Shown here one piece after another: positions 44,935 to 54,562 of a stretch of 64,000 nucleotides of DNA. Both the position numbers and the translations under genes were made by a program. Where the stretch lies: contig NZ_JQMV01000003.1 of the NCBI RefSeq assembly GCF_000744885.1, positions 930,001-994,000 on the forward strand, written 5' to 3'. This DNA comes from Thermus amyloliquefaciens. GTDB lineage: Bacteria; Deinococcota; Deinococci; Deinococcales; Thermaceae. The notes below the pieces were generated by a model that saw nothing but the letters and a program-made list of their open reading frames with translations, did no database searches and was not told where the DNA came from. Every line of letters starts with the position of its first letter. The stretch's first letter is position 1.

Positions 44935-46665
44935 TTACCCCGCGCACTCTCCCCGGCCCAGCCGCACTTGGAAGGCCTCCCCTTCCGCCCCCAGGTCCTG
45001 GTAGTACTCCGGGGCCTCCTCGTAGGGAGGAACGGTTTGGAGATCCTCAAGAAGGGGCTTGAAGGAGGTAACCCCCACCCGTTCCAAAAAGGTTTGGAAG
45101 CCTTCCCCGTTTTGCCGTTCTTCCTGGTAGCGCCTTAGGATCCTCTCCACCGCCTCGGGGACGCGCCGGGCGGGGATCCGGGCCACCACTTGGCCGAAGC
45201 GGGCCTCCCCCTCCCGTGTCCCCCCACCCAGGAGCAGGGTGTAGTGGGGCACCTCCCGTTCCCCCACCTTGCGGCTCGCCCCGTAGAAGCCAATGTCCGC
45301 GATGTGATGTTGGCCGCAGGAGTTGGGGCAACCGGAGATCTTGAGGCTGATGGGCCGCACCCTGGGGTCTTGGACCAGGGGAAGAGCTTGGAGGTGCGCC
45401 TCCAGGGCCCGGGCCAACCCTCGGGAGTGGGTGATGGCCAGGTTGCAGGTGTCGGCCCCCGGGCAACGGGTGATGTCCAGGAGGGTGTGGGCCTGGGGAT
45501 GGGCCAGGCCCGCCTGGAGCAGGGCCTCGTAAAGCCCGCCCAAGGCCTCCTCGGGCACGAAGCGAAGGAGGAGGTTTTGGCTGATGGCGCTCCTCACCTC
45601 CCCAGCGTAGGCCTCGGCGATCTCTGCCAGGGCCCTAAGCCCTTCCGGGGTGATGTCCCCCAGGGGCAGGCGCACCGTCACGGTGAAGTACCCCGCCTGC
45701 TTCTGGCGGAAGAGATTGGTCCGGCGCCACTCGTCAAACCCCGGGGCGAAGGAGAAGGGTTTCCTCGGAGGGGAGGGGAGGCGTGGGGGAGGGGGGTCCT
45801 GGGGAGGTTGCCAGGCCCTTAGGTCCTCCCCGCTGGCGGTGAGCTTCACGATGCGCCTTTCCTCCCGCACCGCCTCGCGGAAGGCGGCGATCCCCCACTT
45901 CCTTACCAGGAACTTGAGCCGGGCCTGGGTGAGCACCTTGCGGTTGCCGTAGCGGTCAAAGAGGCGGAGGACCGCCAGGATGGTGGGGAGGAGGTCTTCC
46001 TCGGGGGTGAAGGGTTCCAGGAGTTCGGCGCTCATGGGAGCGGCCCCTAGGCCGCCGCCCACATAGATGCGGAAGCCCCTTTGGCCCCCTTCCAGGGCCG
46101 CCACCGCTCCGATGTCGTGGATGGGGGTGCGGGCGTGGTCGGTGGCGCACCCCTCAAAGGCGATCTTGAACTTGCGGGGCAGGTTTTGCCCCACCGGGTG
46201 GCGGAGGAAGTAGCGGTAGGTGGCCTCGGCGTAAGGGGTCACGTCAAAGGGCTCCTCAGGGGAGACGCCGGCGTAGGGGCAGCAGGTGATGGCCCGGATG
46301 GAGTGGCCGCAGGCCTCGCGGGTGGTGAGGCCCACTTGGTTCACCGCCCGCAGGACCTCGGGCAGGTGCCGACGGTGGACGTGGTGGAGCTGGACCGCCT
46401 GGCGGGTGGTCACGTGGGCCAGCCGGTTTTCCGCGTACCGTTCGGCCACGTCCGCCAGGACCCTTAGCGCCTCGGGGCTGACCCGCCCCACGGGAAGCTT
46501 GATGCGGACCATGTGGTGCTCTGGCCTGCCCCGGATGCCGTAGATGCCGTTTTTTAGGCGGTAGATCCGGAAGTCCTCGAGGTCCGCCTCCCCCGCCTCG
46601 AGGCGGGCGATCATGGCCTCCAGATGCTGGATTTCCGCCGTGGCCTCCGCGCTAAGCCCTGCCAT
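44935..46665 (-). CDS. Siroheme sulfite/nitrite reductase (ferredoxin-type)
   Basis: 576 aa from ATG 46665, set by GGAGG 6 bp upstream and a good promoter behind it. Two NirA-type half-repeats are present. Cluster and siroheme ligands are in DITRCPGADTCNLAITHSRG and ISGCPNSCGQHHIADIG. The operon (cysH, sat, siroheme genes) argues for sulfite to sulfide reduction. The frame is open upstream through an insertion sequence to 47889, but that longer reading is an artefact of a transposase frameshift. Confidence 0.93.
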   Translation of the reverse strand: MAGLSAEATAEIQHLEAMIARLEAGEADLEDFRIYRLKNGIYGIRGRPEHHMVRIKLPVGRVSPEALRVLADVAERYAENRLAHVTTRQAVQLHHVHRRHLPEVLRAVNQVGLTTREACGHSIRAITCCPYAGVSPEEPFDVTPYAEATYRYFLRHPVGQNLPRKFKIAFEGCATDHARTPIHDIGAVAALEGGQRGFRIYVGGGLGAAPMSAELLEPFTPEEDLLPTILAVLRLFDRYGNRKVLTQARLKFLVRKWGIAAFREAVREERRIVKLTASGEDLRAWQPPQDPPPPRLPSPPRKPFSFAPGFDEWRRTNLFRQKQAGYFTVTVRLPLGDITPEGLRALAEIAEAYAGEVRSAISQNLLLRFVPEEALGGLYEALLQAGLAHPQAHTLLDITRCPGADTCNLAITHSRGLARALEAHLQALPLVQDPRVRPISLKISGCPNSCGQHHIADIGFYGASRKVGEREVPHYTLLLGGGTREGEARFGQVVARIPARRVPEAVERILRRYQEERQNGEGFQTFLERVGVTSFKPLLEDLQTVPPYEEAPEYYQDLGAEGEAFQVRLGRGECAG

Positions 46666-46702
46666 TTGGCCTCCTTTCCCCCCTCCCGGGGTTACCCGGT
46701 AC

Positions 46703-46730
46703 GATATACCATTTAGCCTATGAAAGTCAA
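46703..46730 (-). promoter_or_regulatory. Promoter of the sulfate-assimilation operon
   Basis: On the minus strand TTGACT (46730-46725), 16 bp, TATATC (46708-46703), then the GGAGG at about 46676 and ATG at 46665. It lies 5 bp from the IS target duplication, so the insertion spared the hexamers but replaced everything upstream. Confidence 0.7.
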
Positions 46731-46740
46731 GGGTATACGG

Positions 46741-47929
46741 ACTGAGCTCTCCCTCTAAGTTCGGACATCCCCTGCCTCCTGGGGAAGAGGGGGAAGGGGG
46801 AACAGCCTGTGCCACCATAGCTCCAAGGCCCGGCGCAGGATCTCCTCCCATTCCCCACGGGAGAAACGCACAGGACCCCTCAAGAGGATAAAGAGCCCCG
46901 AGTATACCCCCCACTTCCGCCTTCCCCTCGGCCCCCCCTTTCAGGCGCCTCCGCGCCTCCTCCCCCACCAAAAGCCCCACCGCGTAGGCCAAAGCCACCA
47001 GGGCCAGGGTCTTCTCCATCGCCTCCCACCCCTTGCTCATCACCCCAGAAAACCCCATGTGCCCCTTCAGGTCCCTGAACCCCTCCTCAATCTTCATCCG
47101 CTCCTCGTATACCCGGAGAAGCTCCTCAGGAGGCAGGTTCCCCATCACCCAAAGCGCCTCCCGCATCCCCTCCCGCCACACCCCCACCAGGTTCACCTCC
47201 ACCTCCCCCCGGTACCTCACCCCCTCGTACCTCACCTCCCGCCCGCGGTCCACCCAGGGCACCAACCGCTCCCCTCTCCACTCCAGCCTCGGCCTCGTCC
47301 CCAGGTTCAGCCGCACCGCATACCTCACCCCCGCCCGCCCCAGCACCTCCAGCCACCCCGCAAAGGAAAACTCCCGGTCAAACACCCACACCGTCCCCTC
47401 CTCCACGTACCCCCGCACCGCCTCCACCAAATCCTCCCAGGTCCGGTTCCTCCCCTCCGGCTTCCCCTCCCAGTAGCTCCCCACGTACACCGGCACCGCC
47501 CGGCCCTCGTGGGGTTGGGCTACCACCACCGCCCAAAAGCCCAAGGTCTTGCCGTCGGAAAGCCGGCCCACGTAGGGGGTCCTTCTCGCCTGGGGACGGG
47601 GCACCTCCGTGGGGTCCACCAGGAGGAAGGGGGTCTTGGGGTCCAGCAGGCGCAGGAGGTAGCGCTGGGGTTCCAGGAGGGGAAGGAGTCGGTCAATGGC
47701 CTTGTAGTTGGCCTCCTCCGTGGCCTCCTGGCGGTAGGCCCTGGCCCAATCGCTCTTGCGGGCAGAGCCTGAGGCCAGGATGGCCCAGAGCAGGCGGGCT
47801 ATCTTCTCCTCGTGGCGCTCCAGCCAGGCGTCCAGCAAAGGGCTCACAAAGGGCCGTAGAGCCTCCGGTCCAAAGGGTAAGCTCCTCATACCAACCCCAT
47901 TCTGTCTGAACTCAAAGGGGGAGCTCAGT
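46741..47929 (-). mobile_element. IS4-family insertion sequence, 1189 bp
   Basis: Terminal inverted repeats of 27 bp: left 46741-46767 (ACTGAGCTC-CCCT...), right 47903-47929, matching at about 23 positions. The flanking direct repeat ATACGG at 46735-46740 and 47930-47935 is the target-site duplication. It carries one transposase gene. The clean duplication suggests a recent insertion, just upstream of the sulfite reductase promoter. Confidence 0.92.
46755..47889 (-). CDS. IS4-family transposase with a frameshift at A3G7
   Basis: About 378 aa if the frame changes at the AAAGGGGGGG run (46941-46932). DDE residues are visible: first Asp in FLLVDPTEVPRP, second Asp in VWVFDREFSFAGW, and the Y-x2-R-x3-E-x6-K signature in YEERMKIEEGFRDLK. 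After the run, the shifted frame gives KWGVYSGLFILLRGPVRF and WEEILRRALELWWHRLFPLP, a normal IS4 C-terminus, and stops at 46755 inside the inverted repeat. Unshifted, it reads through into nirA. It is either a mutation or slippage-dependent expression. Confidence 0.85.
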
Positions 47930-48018: not shown

Positions 48019-48088
48019 AGGAGAAAAAGCGATGCTTAGGGCCTTTTTCTGGTCCCCCTCGTGGCCCAAGCCACGGCGGGGTGCTTAG
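48019..48088 (+). repeat. Dispersed 70-bp repeat, copy B
   Basis: GAGAAAAAGCGATG, then CCCCTCGTGGCCCAAGCC and GGCGGGGTGCTTAG, closely similar to copies A and C. It lies just downstream of nrdA (minus), overlapping its stop codon, so it may form part of the nrdA 3' end. Confidence 0.7.
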
Positions 48089-49755
48089 CTCTCGCAGGCC
48101 CGGCAGGAGAGGAGGAGGTCCCGGCTGTAGGCCTGGGCGGCGCTGGTGCTGAACTGGTAGTAAAGGGCCTTCAGGCCGCTCCGCCAGGCGTGCAGGTAGA
48201 GCTCGTTCACATCCTTGGGCGGGGCCTCGGGGTGGATCACCAGGTTAAGGGACTGGCCTTGATCGATGTGCTTCTGCCTCCCCGCCGCAAGGTTCACCAG
48301 GGTTTTCTGGGACACTTCGGCGAAGGTCTTAAATACGTCCTTCTCTTCGTCTGTGAGGAAGTCCAGGTGTTGCACGGAGCCGTTGTGCTCCAAGATGCTT
48401 CGCCAAACCTTTTCCTCATCCTTACCCTTTTCCCTCAGGAGCTCCTCCAGGAAGGGGTTCTTGAAGGGCACCCTGGCCTTTTGTAGGTCCTTCAGGTAGT
48501 AGTTGCTGGTGTAGGGCTCGATGGAAGGGGAGACCTGGCCCAGGATGAAGGAGCTACTCTTGGTGGGGGCGATGGCCAAAAGGGTGGCGTTCCGGCGCTC
48601 CATAACCTCCGCCAGCTCGTCCTCGGGGTGGCGGGCCCGGAGCCAGCGGCTGGCCTCCTCCGCCTTTTCCCGGATGGTCTTGAAGATAAGGTTGTTGAGG
48701 TGGATGGCCTCCGGGCTCTCCAGGGGGATCCCCTTGGACTGGAGGTAGCTGTGCCAGCCCAGGACGCCGATGCCGATGGCCCGGTAGCGCCGGGTGAAGC
48801 GCACCGCCCGCTCCATGTAGGGGATGCCCTCCGCCTTCAGGAGGAAGTCGTCCAGCACCGAGTCCAAAAAGACAGTTAGGGTCTCCACTGCATCCGTGTC
48901 CTTCCACTCGTCGAAGTGGAGGAGGTTCAGGGAGGAGAGGCAGCAGACGAAGCTTTCCTCCGGATCCGAAGGGAGCATGATCTCGGTGCACAGGTTGGAG
49001 GCGTGGATGGTCTTGCCGAGCTTTTTGAAGATCTCGGGGGCCTGGCGGTTGGCGTTGTCCCGGAAGAAGAGGTAGGGGATCCCCACCTCGGCCCGGCTCT
49101 TGAGCACTTTGGCCCACCGCTCCCGCTTTTCCCGGTCCCCAGCGATCATGGCCTCCAGCCAGGCGTCCCCCACCGTTACCCCCCAGAACAGGGACTGGAT
49201 CTCGCTTCCTTCCCGCTGGATCCTGAGCCACTCCTCCAGGTCGGGGTGCTCGATGGGGAGGTAGGCGGCGCACTGGCCCCGCCGGGTGGAGCCCTGGTTA
49301 AAGACCTCGATCACCCGGTCAAAGAGGGAGGCGAAGGCATAGGAGCCGTTGCTCTCCCCGTTGTCCCGTATGGGGGCTCCCCTGGGGCGGAGGGTACCCA
49401 GGTAGACGGAGGTGCCCCCGCCCTGCTTGCTCATCATGCCGATCTCCGCCACCGCCCTCAGGATGGAGGCGGTGTCGTCCTCCACGTAGGTGCCGTAGCA
49501 GGAGATGGGAAGCCCCCGCCTGAGGCCGTAGTTGGCCCAGATGGGGGTGGCCAGGGAGTACCAACCCCGGGCCATGTACTCCTGGAACTTCTGGGAGAAG
49601 CCCGGGATACCCGTGAGCCTTTCCGCGTGGTCGGCGATCTCTTTCACCCGCTCCTCCACCGTTACCCCAGGGAGGAGGTAGCCCCGGCTCATGTAGCGCC
49701 GGGTCCACTCGTTGGCCCAGTACCAGGGCCGGTATTCTCGCTTCGTGCGCGTCAT
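48085..49755 (-). CDS. nrdA: Class I ribonucleotide reductase alpha subunit
   Basis: 556 aa, shorter than the usual 700+ because the N-terminal ATP-cone is absent, so overall activity regulation by dATP is not expected. Active-site Cys pair: ISCYGTYVEDD and CCLSSLNLLHFDEW; the thiyl Cys is in ASNLCTEIMLPSD. The dinucleotide loop is KQGGGTSVYLGTLRPRGAPI. The C-terminal redox pair is in LLSCRACES. It follows nrdB (12 bp gap) under the cobalamin riboswitch. Confidence 0.95.
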   Translation of the reverse strand: MTRTKREYRPWYWANEWTRRYMSRGYLLPGVTVEERVKEIADHAERLTGIPGFSQKFQEYMARGWYSLATPIWANYGLRRGLPISCYGTYVEDDTASILRAVAEIGMMSKQGGGTSVYLGTLRPRGAPIRDNGESNGSYAFASLFDRVIEVFNQGSTRRGQCAAYLPIEHPDLEEWLRIQREGSEIQSLFWGVTVGDAWLEAMIAGDREKRERWAKVLKSRAEVGIPYLFFRDNANRQAPEIFKKLGKTIHASNLCTEIMLPSDPEESFVCCLSSLNLLHFDEWKDTDAVETLTVFLDSVLDDFLLKAEGIPYMERAVRFTRRYRAIGIGVLGWHSYLQSKGIPLESPEAIHLNNLIFKTIREKAEEASRWLRARHPEDELAEVMERRNATLLAIAPTKSSSFILGQVSPSIEPYTSNYYLKDLQKARVPFKNPFLEELLREKGKDEEKVWRSILEHNGSVQHLDFLTDEEKDVFKTFAEVSQKTLVNLAAGRQKHIDQGQSLNLVIHPEAPPKDVNELYLHAWRSGLKALYYQFSTSAAQAYSRDLLLSCRACES

Positions 49756-49767
49756 CTCCTTCCTCTC

Positions 49768-50739
49768 TCAAAAAAGGCTTTCCGGGTCGTAACCCTGCAC
49801 CCTGCGGGCGTAGGCCACGCTCCGCTTGTTGAAGAAGTCCACCTCCTTGTCGGCCAAAAGCTCCAGGTCAAACCACTCCGTGTCCCCTAAGAACTCCTCC
49901 CGAACGGAAAAGGGGGTGGGGAGGTCGTGGAGGGAGAGCACCTGGTTGTAGCGCCTTTTTAGGAACTCCAGGACCTCTTCCCCCCGCACCGCCTCCGCAT
50001 CCCCCTGGGCAAAGATCCAGTCCAGGAGGGCTTCTTCCGAGCGGAAGAAGGCGTGCACCCTTTGCAAAACCTCCTCGGAAAAGGAGGCGTCAAAGAGGTC
50101 GGGCCTTTCCTCCTTAAGGATCCGGAGGAGCTCCACCCCGAAAAGCCCGTGCACGTTTTCCTCCTTGCTGGTGGCCTCGATGGCGTTGGAGATGCCCTTG
50201 AAGCGCCCAAGGCGCTTGTTCAGGGCCATAAGGGTGTAGAACTGGGAGAACAAGGAGGCGTGCTCGGTAAAGGTGGAGAAAAGGAGGAGGGCTAGGGCGT
50301 AGTCCCTAAGGGTTCCCCCCCGGGAAACCTCCAACACCGAGGCCAGCTGGCGGTGCCGCTCCCTTAAGGGAGGTTCCTCCAGGGCCTGGGCGAAGAGGGG
50401 GTTCAGGCCTAGGAGGTCCAGAAGGTGGGCGTAGGCGTTGGCGTGGCGCACCTCGCTCTCGGCGAAGGTCATGCCCACCTCCGCCACCTCGGGCTTGGGG
50501 AAAACCTCGTAGGCCCGGGCCCAGAAGAGCTTCACGGAAAGCTCCACCTGGGCGATGGCCACCAGGGCCCGGCGCACTAGGGAGCGTTCCTCCTCCCCCA
50601 CCAGGGCGTAGTCCTGCAGGTCGGAGGCAAAGCTGAACTCCGTGTGGAGCCAGTAGCTGTGGCGGATGGCGTCGCGAAACCGCAAGAGGTTTGGGTACTC
50701 GTAGGGGCGGTAGTGGGGCCTGGGGTGCGTGAGCATCAT
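49768..50739 (-). CDS. nrdB: Class I ribonucleotide reductase beta subunit
   Basis: 323 aa ferritin-like. Metal ligands are recognisable: Asp in ASDLQDYALVG, Glu in VAIAQVELSVKLFWARA, Glu/His in FAESEVRHANAYAHLLDLLG, and Glu/His in ATSKEENVHGLFGVELL. The Tyr in HANAYAHLL is a candidate radical site; the metal type (Fe or Mn) cannot be read from sequence. It overlaps the thioesterase stop by 4 bp and precedes nrdA. Confidence 0.94.
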   Translation of the reverse strand: MMLTHPRPHYRPYEYPNLLRFRDAIRHSYWLHTEFSFASDLQDYALVGEEERSLVRRALVAIAQVELSVKLFWARAYEVFPKPEVAEVGMTFAESEVRHANAYAHLLDLLGLNPLFAQALEEPPLRERHRQLASVLEVSRGGTLRDYALALLLFSTFTEHASLFSQFYTLMALNKRLGRFKGISNAIEATSKEENVHGLFGVELLRILKEERPDLFDASFSEEVLQRVHAFFRSEEALLDWIFAQGDAEAVRGEEVLEFLKRRYNQVLSLHDLPTPFSVREEFLGDTEWFDLELLADKEVDFFNKRSVAYARRVQGYDPESLF

Positions 50740-51110
50740 CCCTCCAAAGGGGGCACGGGCACGGGCCGCCCGTCCTCGTCCACCGCCACCAGGACGAAGC
50801 CCCCCTTGGCCGCCAGGTAGGGCTCCTTACCCGGCTCCAGGGGCTCCACCCACATCTCCACCGCCACCCGCATGGAGGTGCGGCCCACCTCCACCACCCA
50901 GGCCTTGAGCTCCACGATGGCCCCCAGGGGCACTGGGCGTTTGAAGTCCACCGCGTCGGAGTGCACCGTGACCACCTTGCGCTTGGCGTGGCGGGTAGCC
51001 GCTACGAAGGCTGCCTGGTCCATCCAGGCCAAAGCAGTTCCACCGAATAGGGTTCCGTAGTGGTTGGTCTCCCCGGGGAAGACCGTATACACCATGCGCG
51101 TTTCCCGCAT
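50736..51110 (-). CDS. Acyl-CoA thioesterase, hotdog fold (YciA/BFIT type)
   Basis: 124 aa. MVYTVFPGETNHYGTLFGGT and ALAWMDQAAFVAATRHAKRK are the typical thioesterase substrate region with the catalytic Asp in AWMDQAA, and TVHSDAVDFKRPVPLGAIVE follows. ATG 51110 has GGGAGG upstream. It is the first gene after the cobalamin riboswitch, so its expression should follow nrdB-nrdA. A thioesterase in an RNR operon is unexpected. Confidence 0.9.
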   Translation of the reverse strand: MRETRMVYTVFPGETNHYGTLFGGTALAWMDQAAFVAATRHAKRKVVTVHSDAVDFKRPVPLGAIVELKAWVVEVGRTSMRVAVEMWVEPLEPGKEPYLAAKGGFVLVAVDEDGRPVPVPPLEG

Positions 51111-51249
51111 GAAAACCTCCCAGATCCCTCTTTGGAGGGAAGAAACCTACCTTCCACCCAGTAGGGGCGGATTCCTCCAGCCGCCTCACCTCAAGGCCTT
51201 CGCAGGCCTTTGCGTTTTAGGGGGATTAAGGCTCTAGGGTCCCACAGGC

Positions 51250-51462
51250 ATCACCACCTTCACCCTTGCCTCGAGGGCTACGGGGCAGGACCGCGAAGCG
51301 GGTACTCGGGCTTCCGGACAGGGCCGGTTACCGTTGCGGGACAGCGCCGGACTTTCACCGGACTTCCCCCACCGCCCCAGGGGCGTCCAGGCCTGTCGGC
51401 CTGGCATCGCGGCCAGGACACCCTAAGTATTGGGCATCCTGGCCGCAAGGCTACCATATCTT
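51250..51462 (-). promoter_or_regulatory. Cobalamin riboswitch upstream of thioesterase-nrdB-nrdA
   Basis: On the minus strand the conserved core is nearly perfect: GGTGAAAGTCCGG (about 51361-51349), then CGCTGTCCCGCAACGGTAA (51346-51328), which contains the CCCGCAAC loop, and AAGCCCGAGTACCCGC (about 51313-51298). Upstream GC hairpins and a downstream GGTGGTGATGCC fit the closing stems. The ends are approximate. The gene downstream on this strand is the thioesterase at 51110 with class I RNR behind it. Confidence 0.9.
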
Positions 51463-51544
51463 GCTTCCCCAAGTCAATGCCGGTTGCCCCCCGGGGCCCC
51501 AAGGGGACGCACGGGGAACCCCTCCCCCGGGGTTTGGGTATAGG

Positions 51545-53715: not shown

Positions 53716-53768
53716 GAAGGTGTTCTGCGCCCTATTCTTCCCCCCTGATCTGCTATGCTGAGGGGGCA

Positions 53769-53866
53769 GGCTAGGGGTGCCCCAAGCGAGGGGCTGAGAG
53801 CTGGGTACCTCCCAGCAACCCTTGGAACCTGATCCGGGTAATGCCGGCGGAGGGAAGCCTATGCGG
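53769..53866 (+). promoter_or_regulatory. TPP riboswitch (THI element) of the thiamine operon
   Basis: GGGGTGCC, GGGGCTGAGAG, then ACCCTTGGAACCTGATCCGG and GTAATGCCGGCGGAGGGAAG are the invariant parts of the thi-box aptamer. An extended -10 TGCTATGCT (53751-53759) lies just upstream. Downstream (53880-53940) a GGCC-rich stem overlaps the GAGGAGG before thiE, so control may be on translation or termination. Confidence 0.95.
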
Positions 53867-53941
53867 AAGCGCCCAAACCCCCAAAACCCAACCTTCCTCG
53901 GGCCGCAGGGCTTTGCCTTGCCGGCCTGAGGAGGTGAGACC

Positions 53942-54562
53942 TTGCGGGGAAGGCTCTATCTGGTGGTGACCCCCAGGCCCGGTTGGTCCACCCATGAGGT
54001 CCTGGACCGCACGGAGAGGGCCCTGGCGGGCGGGGTGGAGGTGTTGCAGCTTCGGGCCAAGGACTGGGAGGCGAGGCCCACCCTGGCCCTGGGGGAGAGG
54101 ATGCTTTCCCTGGCCCGGCGCCACGGGGTGCCCTTTTTCCTCAACGACCGGCCCGACCTGGCGGCCCTTCTGGGGGCGGACGGGGTACACCTGGGCCAGA
54201 ACGACCTCACCCCGGAGGAGGCCCGGCGCTTCTTCGGGGGGATGGTGGGCCGTTCCACCCATGCCCCGGAGCAGGCCCTGAGGGCCCTGGGGGAGGGGGC
54301 GGACTACCTTTCCATAGGCCCGGTGTGGGAGACCCCCACCAAGCCGGGCAGGCCGGCGGCGGGGCTGGGCTACGTGCGCTGGGCCGGGGAAAACCTGGGG
54401 GAGAAGCCCTGGTACGCCATCGGCGGGATCACCCTGGAGAACCTGGACGTGGTCTTGGAAGCCGGGGCCCGGCGGATCGTGGTGGTGCGGGCCATCCTGG
54501 ACGCCCCCGACCCCGAGAAGGCGGCCCGGGCCTTTCGGGAGAGGCTTTATGGTGTGGCTTAA
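53942..54562 (+). CDS. thiE: Thiamine-phosphate synthase
   Basis: 206 aa from a TTG preceded by GAGGAGG. The barrel motifs VLQLRAKDWEARPTLALGER, FFLNDRPDLAALLGADGVHL, GQNDLTPEEARRFFGG and YLSIGPVWETPTKPGRPAAG are typical, with IGGITLENLDVVLEAGARRI near the end. It joins HMP-PP and thiazole phosphate to thiamine phosphate. It overlaps thiS by 14 bp. Confidence 0.94.
   Translation: MRGRLYLVVTPRPGWSTHEVLDRTERALAGGVEVLQLRAKDWEARPTLALGERMLSLARRHGVPFFLNDRPDLAALLGADGVHLGQNDLTPEEARRFFGGMVGRSTHAPEQALRALGEGADYLSIGPVWETPTKPGRPAAGLGYVRWAGENLGEKPWYAIGGITLENLDVVLEAGARRIVVVRAILDAPDPEKAARAFRERLYGVA

Follow-up and report, generated by a model that had tools for sequence, protein, structure and literature searches.

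Isozymes of B12-dependent enzymes are a recognised class of riboswitch targets (PMC3766115). In Streptomyces coelicolor, a B12 (cobalamin) riboswitch precedes the class I ribonucleotide reductase operon nrdABS (Borovok et al. 2006, cited in PMC4991794 and PMC4342826), and in Bacillus methanolicus riboswitches are predicted before nrdAB and metE (PMC4342826). In Mycobacterium tuberculosis, the B12 riboswitch of ppe2 targets the start of a short upstream open reading frame (uORF) (PMC11260477). Here we analyse a cobalamin riboswitch and the thioesterase-nrdB-nrdA operon that follows it on the minus strand of a 64,000-nucleotide (nt) stretch of Thermus amyloliquefaciens DNA (contig NZ_JQMV01000003.1, positions 930,001 to 994,000; the window). 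We propose, with a probability of about 0.75, that this element is a B12 OFF switch that would mask the start site of a leader mini-ORF, that the effect would be relayed to the B12-independent operon, and that NrdR would add control by deoxynucleoside triphosphate (dNTP) level; B12 repression, loop pairing, mini-ORF translation, the relay and NrdR binding are the steps that we infer.

Like Streptomyces nrdABS, the locus joins a B12 riboswitch to a downstream class I operon, and the genome likewise encodes a class II NrdJ. Two features that mark the nrdABS type are thus found here, namely a coding-strand riboswitch upstream of a B12-independent isozyme and a B12-dependent counterpart in the genome. 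It differs in that the Thermus enzyme is class Id-like rather than class Ia, the operon starts with a thioesterase, metE is included in relatives, and a mini-ORF follows the aptamer. The two isozymes targeted in B. methanolicus are the same, but there they have two separate riboswitches, whereas in many Thermus they share one operon. A literature search limited to open-licence papers found no description of this operon in Thermus or of the leader ORFs. The pairing of aptamer and operon thus extends a known theme, which a preliminary description of this DNA had noted for Streptomyces and which papers citing Borovok et al. (2006) bear out; the leader design is probably new. The arrangement would let one RNA sensor decide, across a whole genus, whether DNA precursors are made by way of a cobalt or a probable manganese cofactor, and suggests a single RNA-controlled operon for life without B12, comprising NrdBA, MetE and a thioesterase. 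The leader also makes a tractable example, in a thermophile, of a problem that work on M. tuberculosis has raised only lately, that of a riboswitch regulating through translation of a tiny upstream ORF.

A cobalamin riboswitch precedes a class Id-like reductase operon

The preliminary description had placed a cobalamin aptamer core on the minus strand, followed by a thioesterase, nrdB and nrdA, and had proposed a covariance-model search. A cmscan search of both strands across the whole window placed the full RF00174 model (1-189) on the minus strand at 40.6 bits (gathering score 31.5; E 8e-07). A plus-strand score would have contradicted that placement, but the model had no match there. The three downstream genes were likewise borne out by profile matches:

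51280..51432, minus strand: cobalamin riboswitch aptamer, RF00174
50736..51110, minus strand: hotdog acyl-coenzyme A (acyl-CoA) thioesterase (4HBT/YciA-like), orthologue of TTHB207 (PDB 2EIS); found only in these operons
49768..50739, minus strand: nrdB, class Id-like radical-generating subunit (Ribonuc_red_sm)
48085..49755, minus strand: nrdA (NrdE-prime, TIGR02510; 977.8 bits, cut-off 602), catalytic subunit without an ATP cone

Since the thioesterase and nrdB genes overlap by 4 bases (ATGA) and only 12 nt separate nrdB from nrdA, the three are read as one operon. The P6 extension of the aptamer consists of a short loop only, leaving class I, IIa and IIb as subclass candidates. Across the genome, the sole other RF00174 match sits upstream of a BtuF-like gene.

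The assignment of the enzyme to class I held for the reductase as such and was refined from generic class I to class Id-like. Among solved structures, NrdB is closest to 8dq3, 6sf4 and 5olk (E ~1e-90), followed by 6cwo and 8dq4 (1e-70), with all others at 1e-17 or weaker; we take 6sf4 and 5olk to be from L. blandensis and 6cwo from F. johnsoniae. This fits PMC6754362, which lists the class Id manganese ligands as Glu170, Glu200, His203, Glu263, Glu298 and His301, together with Lys174 (L. blandensis numbering). In an alignment, all six ligands and the characteristic lysine are kept in the Thermus NrdB, and NrdA lacks an ATP cone, as does the class Id NrdAi (PMC5794259). The likeness to the class Id reductases of Leeuwenhoekiella, Facklamia and Flavobacterium (PMC6754362, PMC5794259) therefore covers sequence, metal ligands, the lysine near the metal site and the cone-less NrdA, the difference from those systems being that the Thermus NrdB (323 amino acids, aa) has no N-terminal ATP cone. 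NrdBA is a class Id-like reductase, with manganese as its probable cofactor.

B12-dependent counterparts in the genome

As the preliminary description had anticipated, a search for nrdJ showed that the genome encodes B12-dependent class II enzymes, whose absence would have contradicted its reading: two reductases exceed the TIGR02504 cut-off for NrdJ. One, of 587 aa, adjoins a glpX-like gene, and the other is interrupted by an intein. These class II loci lie in the region of C3:1472579 and C3:1745273 (genome G000); the C-terminal extension is missing from one, and the other carries the intein. The genome also encodes MetH and two methylmalonyl-CoA-mutase-family genes, but a metE search of it gave no match. 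Because CbiD, too, is absent from this genome, the organism probably scavenges B12 or a precursor. Genes of the methylmalonyl-CoA-mutase family were present in every genome searched, which makes it plausible, by inference alone, that the thioesterase may relieve acyl-CoA build-up during B12 shortage.

A conserved three-codon leader ORF follows the aptamer

Directly 3' of the aptamer, a near-invariant block, CCCTCGAGGCAAGGGYGAAGGTGGTGA, holds a hairpin and a strong Shine-Dalgarno (SD) sequence, and a minimal ORF lies beyond it at proper SD spacing:

51263..51277, minus strand: hairpin CCCTCGAGGCAAGGG, directly 5' of the SD, invariant in 25/25 leaders; candidate P13/L13 kissing partner of aptamer loop L5
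51250..51260, minus strand: SD sequence AAGGTGGTGAT of the mini-ORF, with AAGGTGGTGA in 25/25 leaders; duplex with the 16S 3' end ~-14.7 kcal/mol
51234..51245, minus strand: three-codon leader ORF GTG GGA CCC TAG, RTG NNN CCY TRR in 25/25 leaders; its GGGAC complements L5 GUCCC
51214..51226, minus strand: C-rich element ATCCCCCTAAAAC, complementary to aptamer GGGGGA; in Thermus leaders, C-rich and then A-rich bases follow the mini-ORF

Across the 25 leaders, the mini-ORF starts with GTG (21) or ATG (4), ends with TAG (15), TAA (6) or TGA (4), and leaves 80–157 nt between its end and the thioesterase start. Start codons have changed three times and stop codons six times on the NrdBA tree, and each change gave another start or stop codon. 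At the homologous start site, Meiothermus-type nrd leaders have ORFs of 7–11 codons (14/14), Thermus cob leaders have ORFs of 20–22 codons whose TGA overlaps the start that follows (13/13), and a Trueperaceae genome has the start of nrdA itself; hairpins resembling CCCTCGAGGCAAGGG recur in all three leader types. These homologous sites argue that the mini-ORF start is a real start site. The Thermus cob leader peptides (L108–L120) are mostly basic and show the TGA/start overlap also seen in M. tuberculosis uPPE2.

The complementarity of GGGAC to L5 GUCCC, together with a GGA wobble base that is invariant in the 24 leaders with that codon, indicates that RNA pairing probably constrains the mini-ORF as well. 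Single-sequence folds pair GGGAC with L5, for which the hairpin loop CGAGGCA is a second candidate partner through partial pairing. In some of these folds, the C-rich element pairs with aptamer GGGGG(A), making it a possible anti-aptamer. RNAalifold on the leader alignment, in which near-identical rows dominate, returned a plain nested fold of a kind that cannot represent a kissing loop.

Proposed mechanism and direct control as an alternative

We propose that the transcript would start ~10 nt 5' of the riboswitch and that the latter would act as a B12 OFF switch for B12-independent stand-ins, NrdBA for NrdJ and, in many relatives, MetE for MetH, plus the thioesterase. With B12 bound, L5 would pair with downstream sequence and thereby mask the translation start site directly 3' of the aptamer. 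In Thermus, the masked site opens only the three-codon ORF, so that the effect would have to reach an operon 80–157 nt downstream. This separates the nrd leader from M. tuberculosis ppe2, with which it would share control at the start site of a short uORF: the Thermus cob leaders share the stop/start overlap too, whereas the nrd mini-ORF has three codons and no AUGA overlap, and given its distance from the gene direct stop-start coupling cannot work. The relay would most likely be ribosome-dependent transcription attenuation or mRNA decay. Within this, Rho-dependent attenuation or decay is our preferred, though unproven, version, because no consistent terminator was found, the 24 nt after the mini-ORF stop are C-rich and G-poor (mean 11.0 C and 2.6 G), and Rho is encoded in the genome.

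Several points weigh against this proposal. The leaders are too conserved for covariation to prove the pairings, and two L5 partners fit; a three-codon ORF that ends so far upstream has no obvious way to relay a signal; and since the window genome lacks metE, B12 or methionine would still be needed with NrdBA on.

The same leader could instead work by direct control, with B12 blocking the thioesterase ribosome-binding site or triggering an intrinsic terminator, and with RTG GGA CCY TRR serving as an untranslated RNA that pairs with L5. Such a role would agree with the GGGAC complementarity and its predicted folds, and with the RNA-level constraint that the invariant wobble base suggests; moreover, intrinsic termination is how the btuF riboswitch works in Thermus. 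However, a terminator search that detected 5/6 btuF leaders (only one in a stricter version) revealed no consistent terminator in the 25 nrd leaders, where 6/25 had weak matches at differing places, compared with 1–2 in shuffles, and the thioesterase start is remote from the aptamer. By contrast with what pairing alone would favour, the string always keeps RTG and never becomes GCGGGAC, which is the better L5 complement, while its three stop codons interchange and, in Trueperaceae, nrdA itself begins at the homologous site. On this evidence we consider direct control unlikely.

Masking of a leader ORF might extend beyond this operon. We see roughly even odds that leader ORFs are central to the design of B12 riboswitches in Thermaceae, with the ligand controlling the conserved start of a 3-codon (Thermus nrd), 7–11-codon (Meiothermus-type nrdI-nrdE) or 20–22-codon (Thermus cob) ORF and ribosomes there relaying the decision to the operon. 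Met-Gly-Pro-stop would be the extreme case, possibly involving a stall at Gly-Pro-stop.

Promoter and NrdR-like boxes

A promoter, TTGACT-N18-TAGCCT, ends 15 nt 5' of the aptamer and is accompanied by paired 16-mers:

51472..51477, minus strand: -35 element TTGACT
51448..51453, minus strand: -10 element TAGCCT
51451..51466, minus strand: NrdR-like box 1 (AAGCAAGATATGGTAG), within the -35/-10 spacer
51420..51435, minus strand: NrdR-like box 2 (GCCCAATACTTAGGGT), 31 bp from box 1 and overlapping the riboswitch 5' end

The pattern TTGAC-N17/18-TANNNT occurs in 25/25 related leaders, one of them with TTTACT. NrdR also controls these reductase operons in Streptomyces. Of the leaders, 24/25 from Thermus and 13/14 of the Meiothermus type have a pair of NrdR-like 16-mers at 31 bp, and such a pair also precedes nrdJ in the window genome, which carries an NrdR gene (C3:566663). 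Single boxes match the NrdR consensus at only 7–13 of 16 positions, the fixed spacing being the stronger argument. Both hallmarks of an NrdR regulon are present, namely the NrdR gene itself and paired 16-bp boxes some three helical turns from each other, and NrdR probably also works at the promoter that drives the riboswitch, where it would add the dNTP-level control.

Conservation across Thermaceae and the link to metE

A TIGR02510 protein scores over the cut-off in 24/50 Thermaceae genomes, and the riboswitch lies upstream on the same strand in 28/28 operon copies with upstream DNA present (25 genomes). These copies include a fragmented one in G042 and second copies in four genomes; a few are partial RF00174 matches, and that of G048, at 30.6 bits, falls slightly under the gathering score. 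In 25/25 loci read, riboswitch, thioesterase, nrdB and nrdA follow one another in this order. Three Thermus genomes without the NrdE-prime reductase (G026, G031, G038) also lack the operon thioesterase, keeping only a 45–46% identical paralogue. Among 12 other NrdE-prime loci scanned, a B12 riboswitch was present only in a Trueperaceae and a Thermus-like contig.

In nine genomes, metE lies between the thioesterase and nrdB, with remnants at that place in G034 and G024, and intact metE in the genus Thermus occurs only inside this operon. As the label metE, remnant or none needs six changes on the NrdBA tree and the remnants remain in place, the pattern suggests that metE was lost repeatedly from the operon. 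The operon reads as a set of B12-independent isozymes with a dedicated thioesterase. Meiothermus-type genomes arrive at the same riboswitch-reductase-metE combination with other parts: there, the riboswitch is followed by nrdI and a ~692-aa NrdE, with metE just after in G002, G008, G009 and G015.

Since metE is a classic B12-riboswitch target and is present in many of these operons, one could ask whether metE alone accounts for retention of the riboswitch, so that metE-less genomes such as that of the window would carry only a relic. This is very improbable, given that aptamer, SD, mini-ORF and promoter are equally conserved in metE-less operons and others, and that in the Trueperaceae genome the riboswitch directly precedes nrdA. 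Control of the divergent plus-strand genes (protoglobin and cobB), attractive only in that the adjoining cobB is a cobalamin synthesis gene, can be dismissed, as the aptamer orientation rules out cobB as a target and the thioesterase and nrd genes come next in every copy read.

Additional observations

In Thermus, CbiD was present in 2/9 metE genomes versus 10/18 others (hand count); we regard this anticorrelation as suggestive only and do not claim it. A cobalamin riboswitch directly precedes a stand-alone metE in G011 (C8:30167-30298), and in some Meiothermus-type genomes (L097, L098, L099) the riboswitch-nrdI-nrdE operon comes directly after a class II nrdJ. Near-identical riboswitch-thioesterase-nrdBA copies were seen in G024 (C47), G027 (C32), G043 (C10), G046 (C21) and G047 (C22), as a second copy in four of them, and suggest a mobile, possibly plasmid-borne, cassette. 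An 8.7 kb contig from a Candidatus Bipolaricaulota metagenome-assembled genome (L130) bears a Thermus-like operon and leader, probably through binning contamination.

Elsewhere in the window, a 984-aa frame (44935-47889, minus strand) has an IS4-type transposase as its N-terminal part and continues in frame as a NirA-like nitrite/sulfite reductase; an insertion at the 5' end of the gene may explain the fusion. On the plus strand, a thiamine pyrophosphate (TPP) riboswitch (53763-53872; 79.9 bits) precedes a thiE-like gene at 53942.

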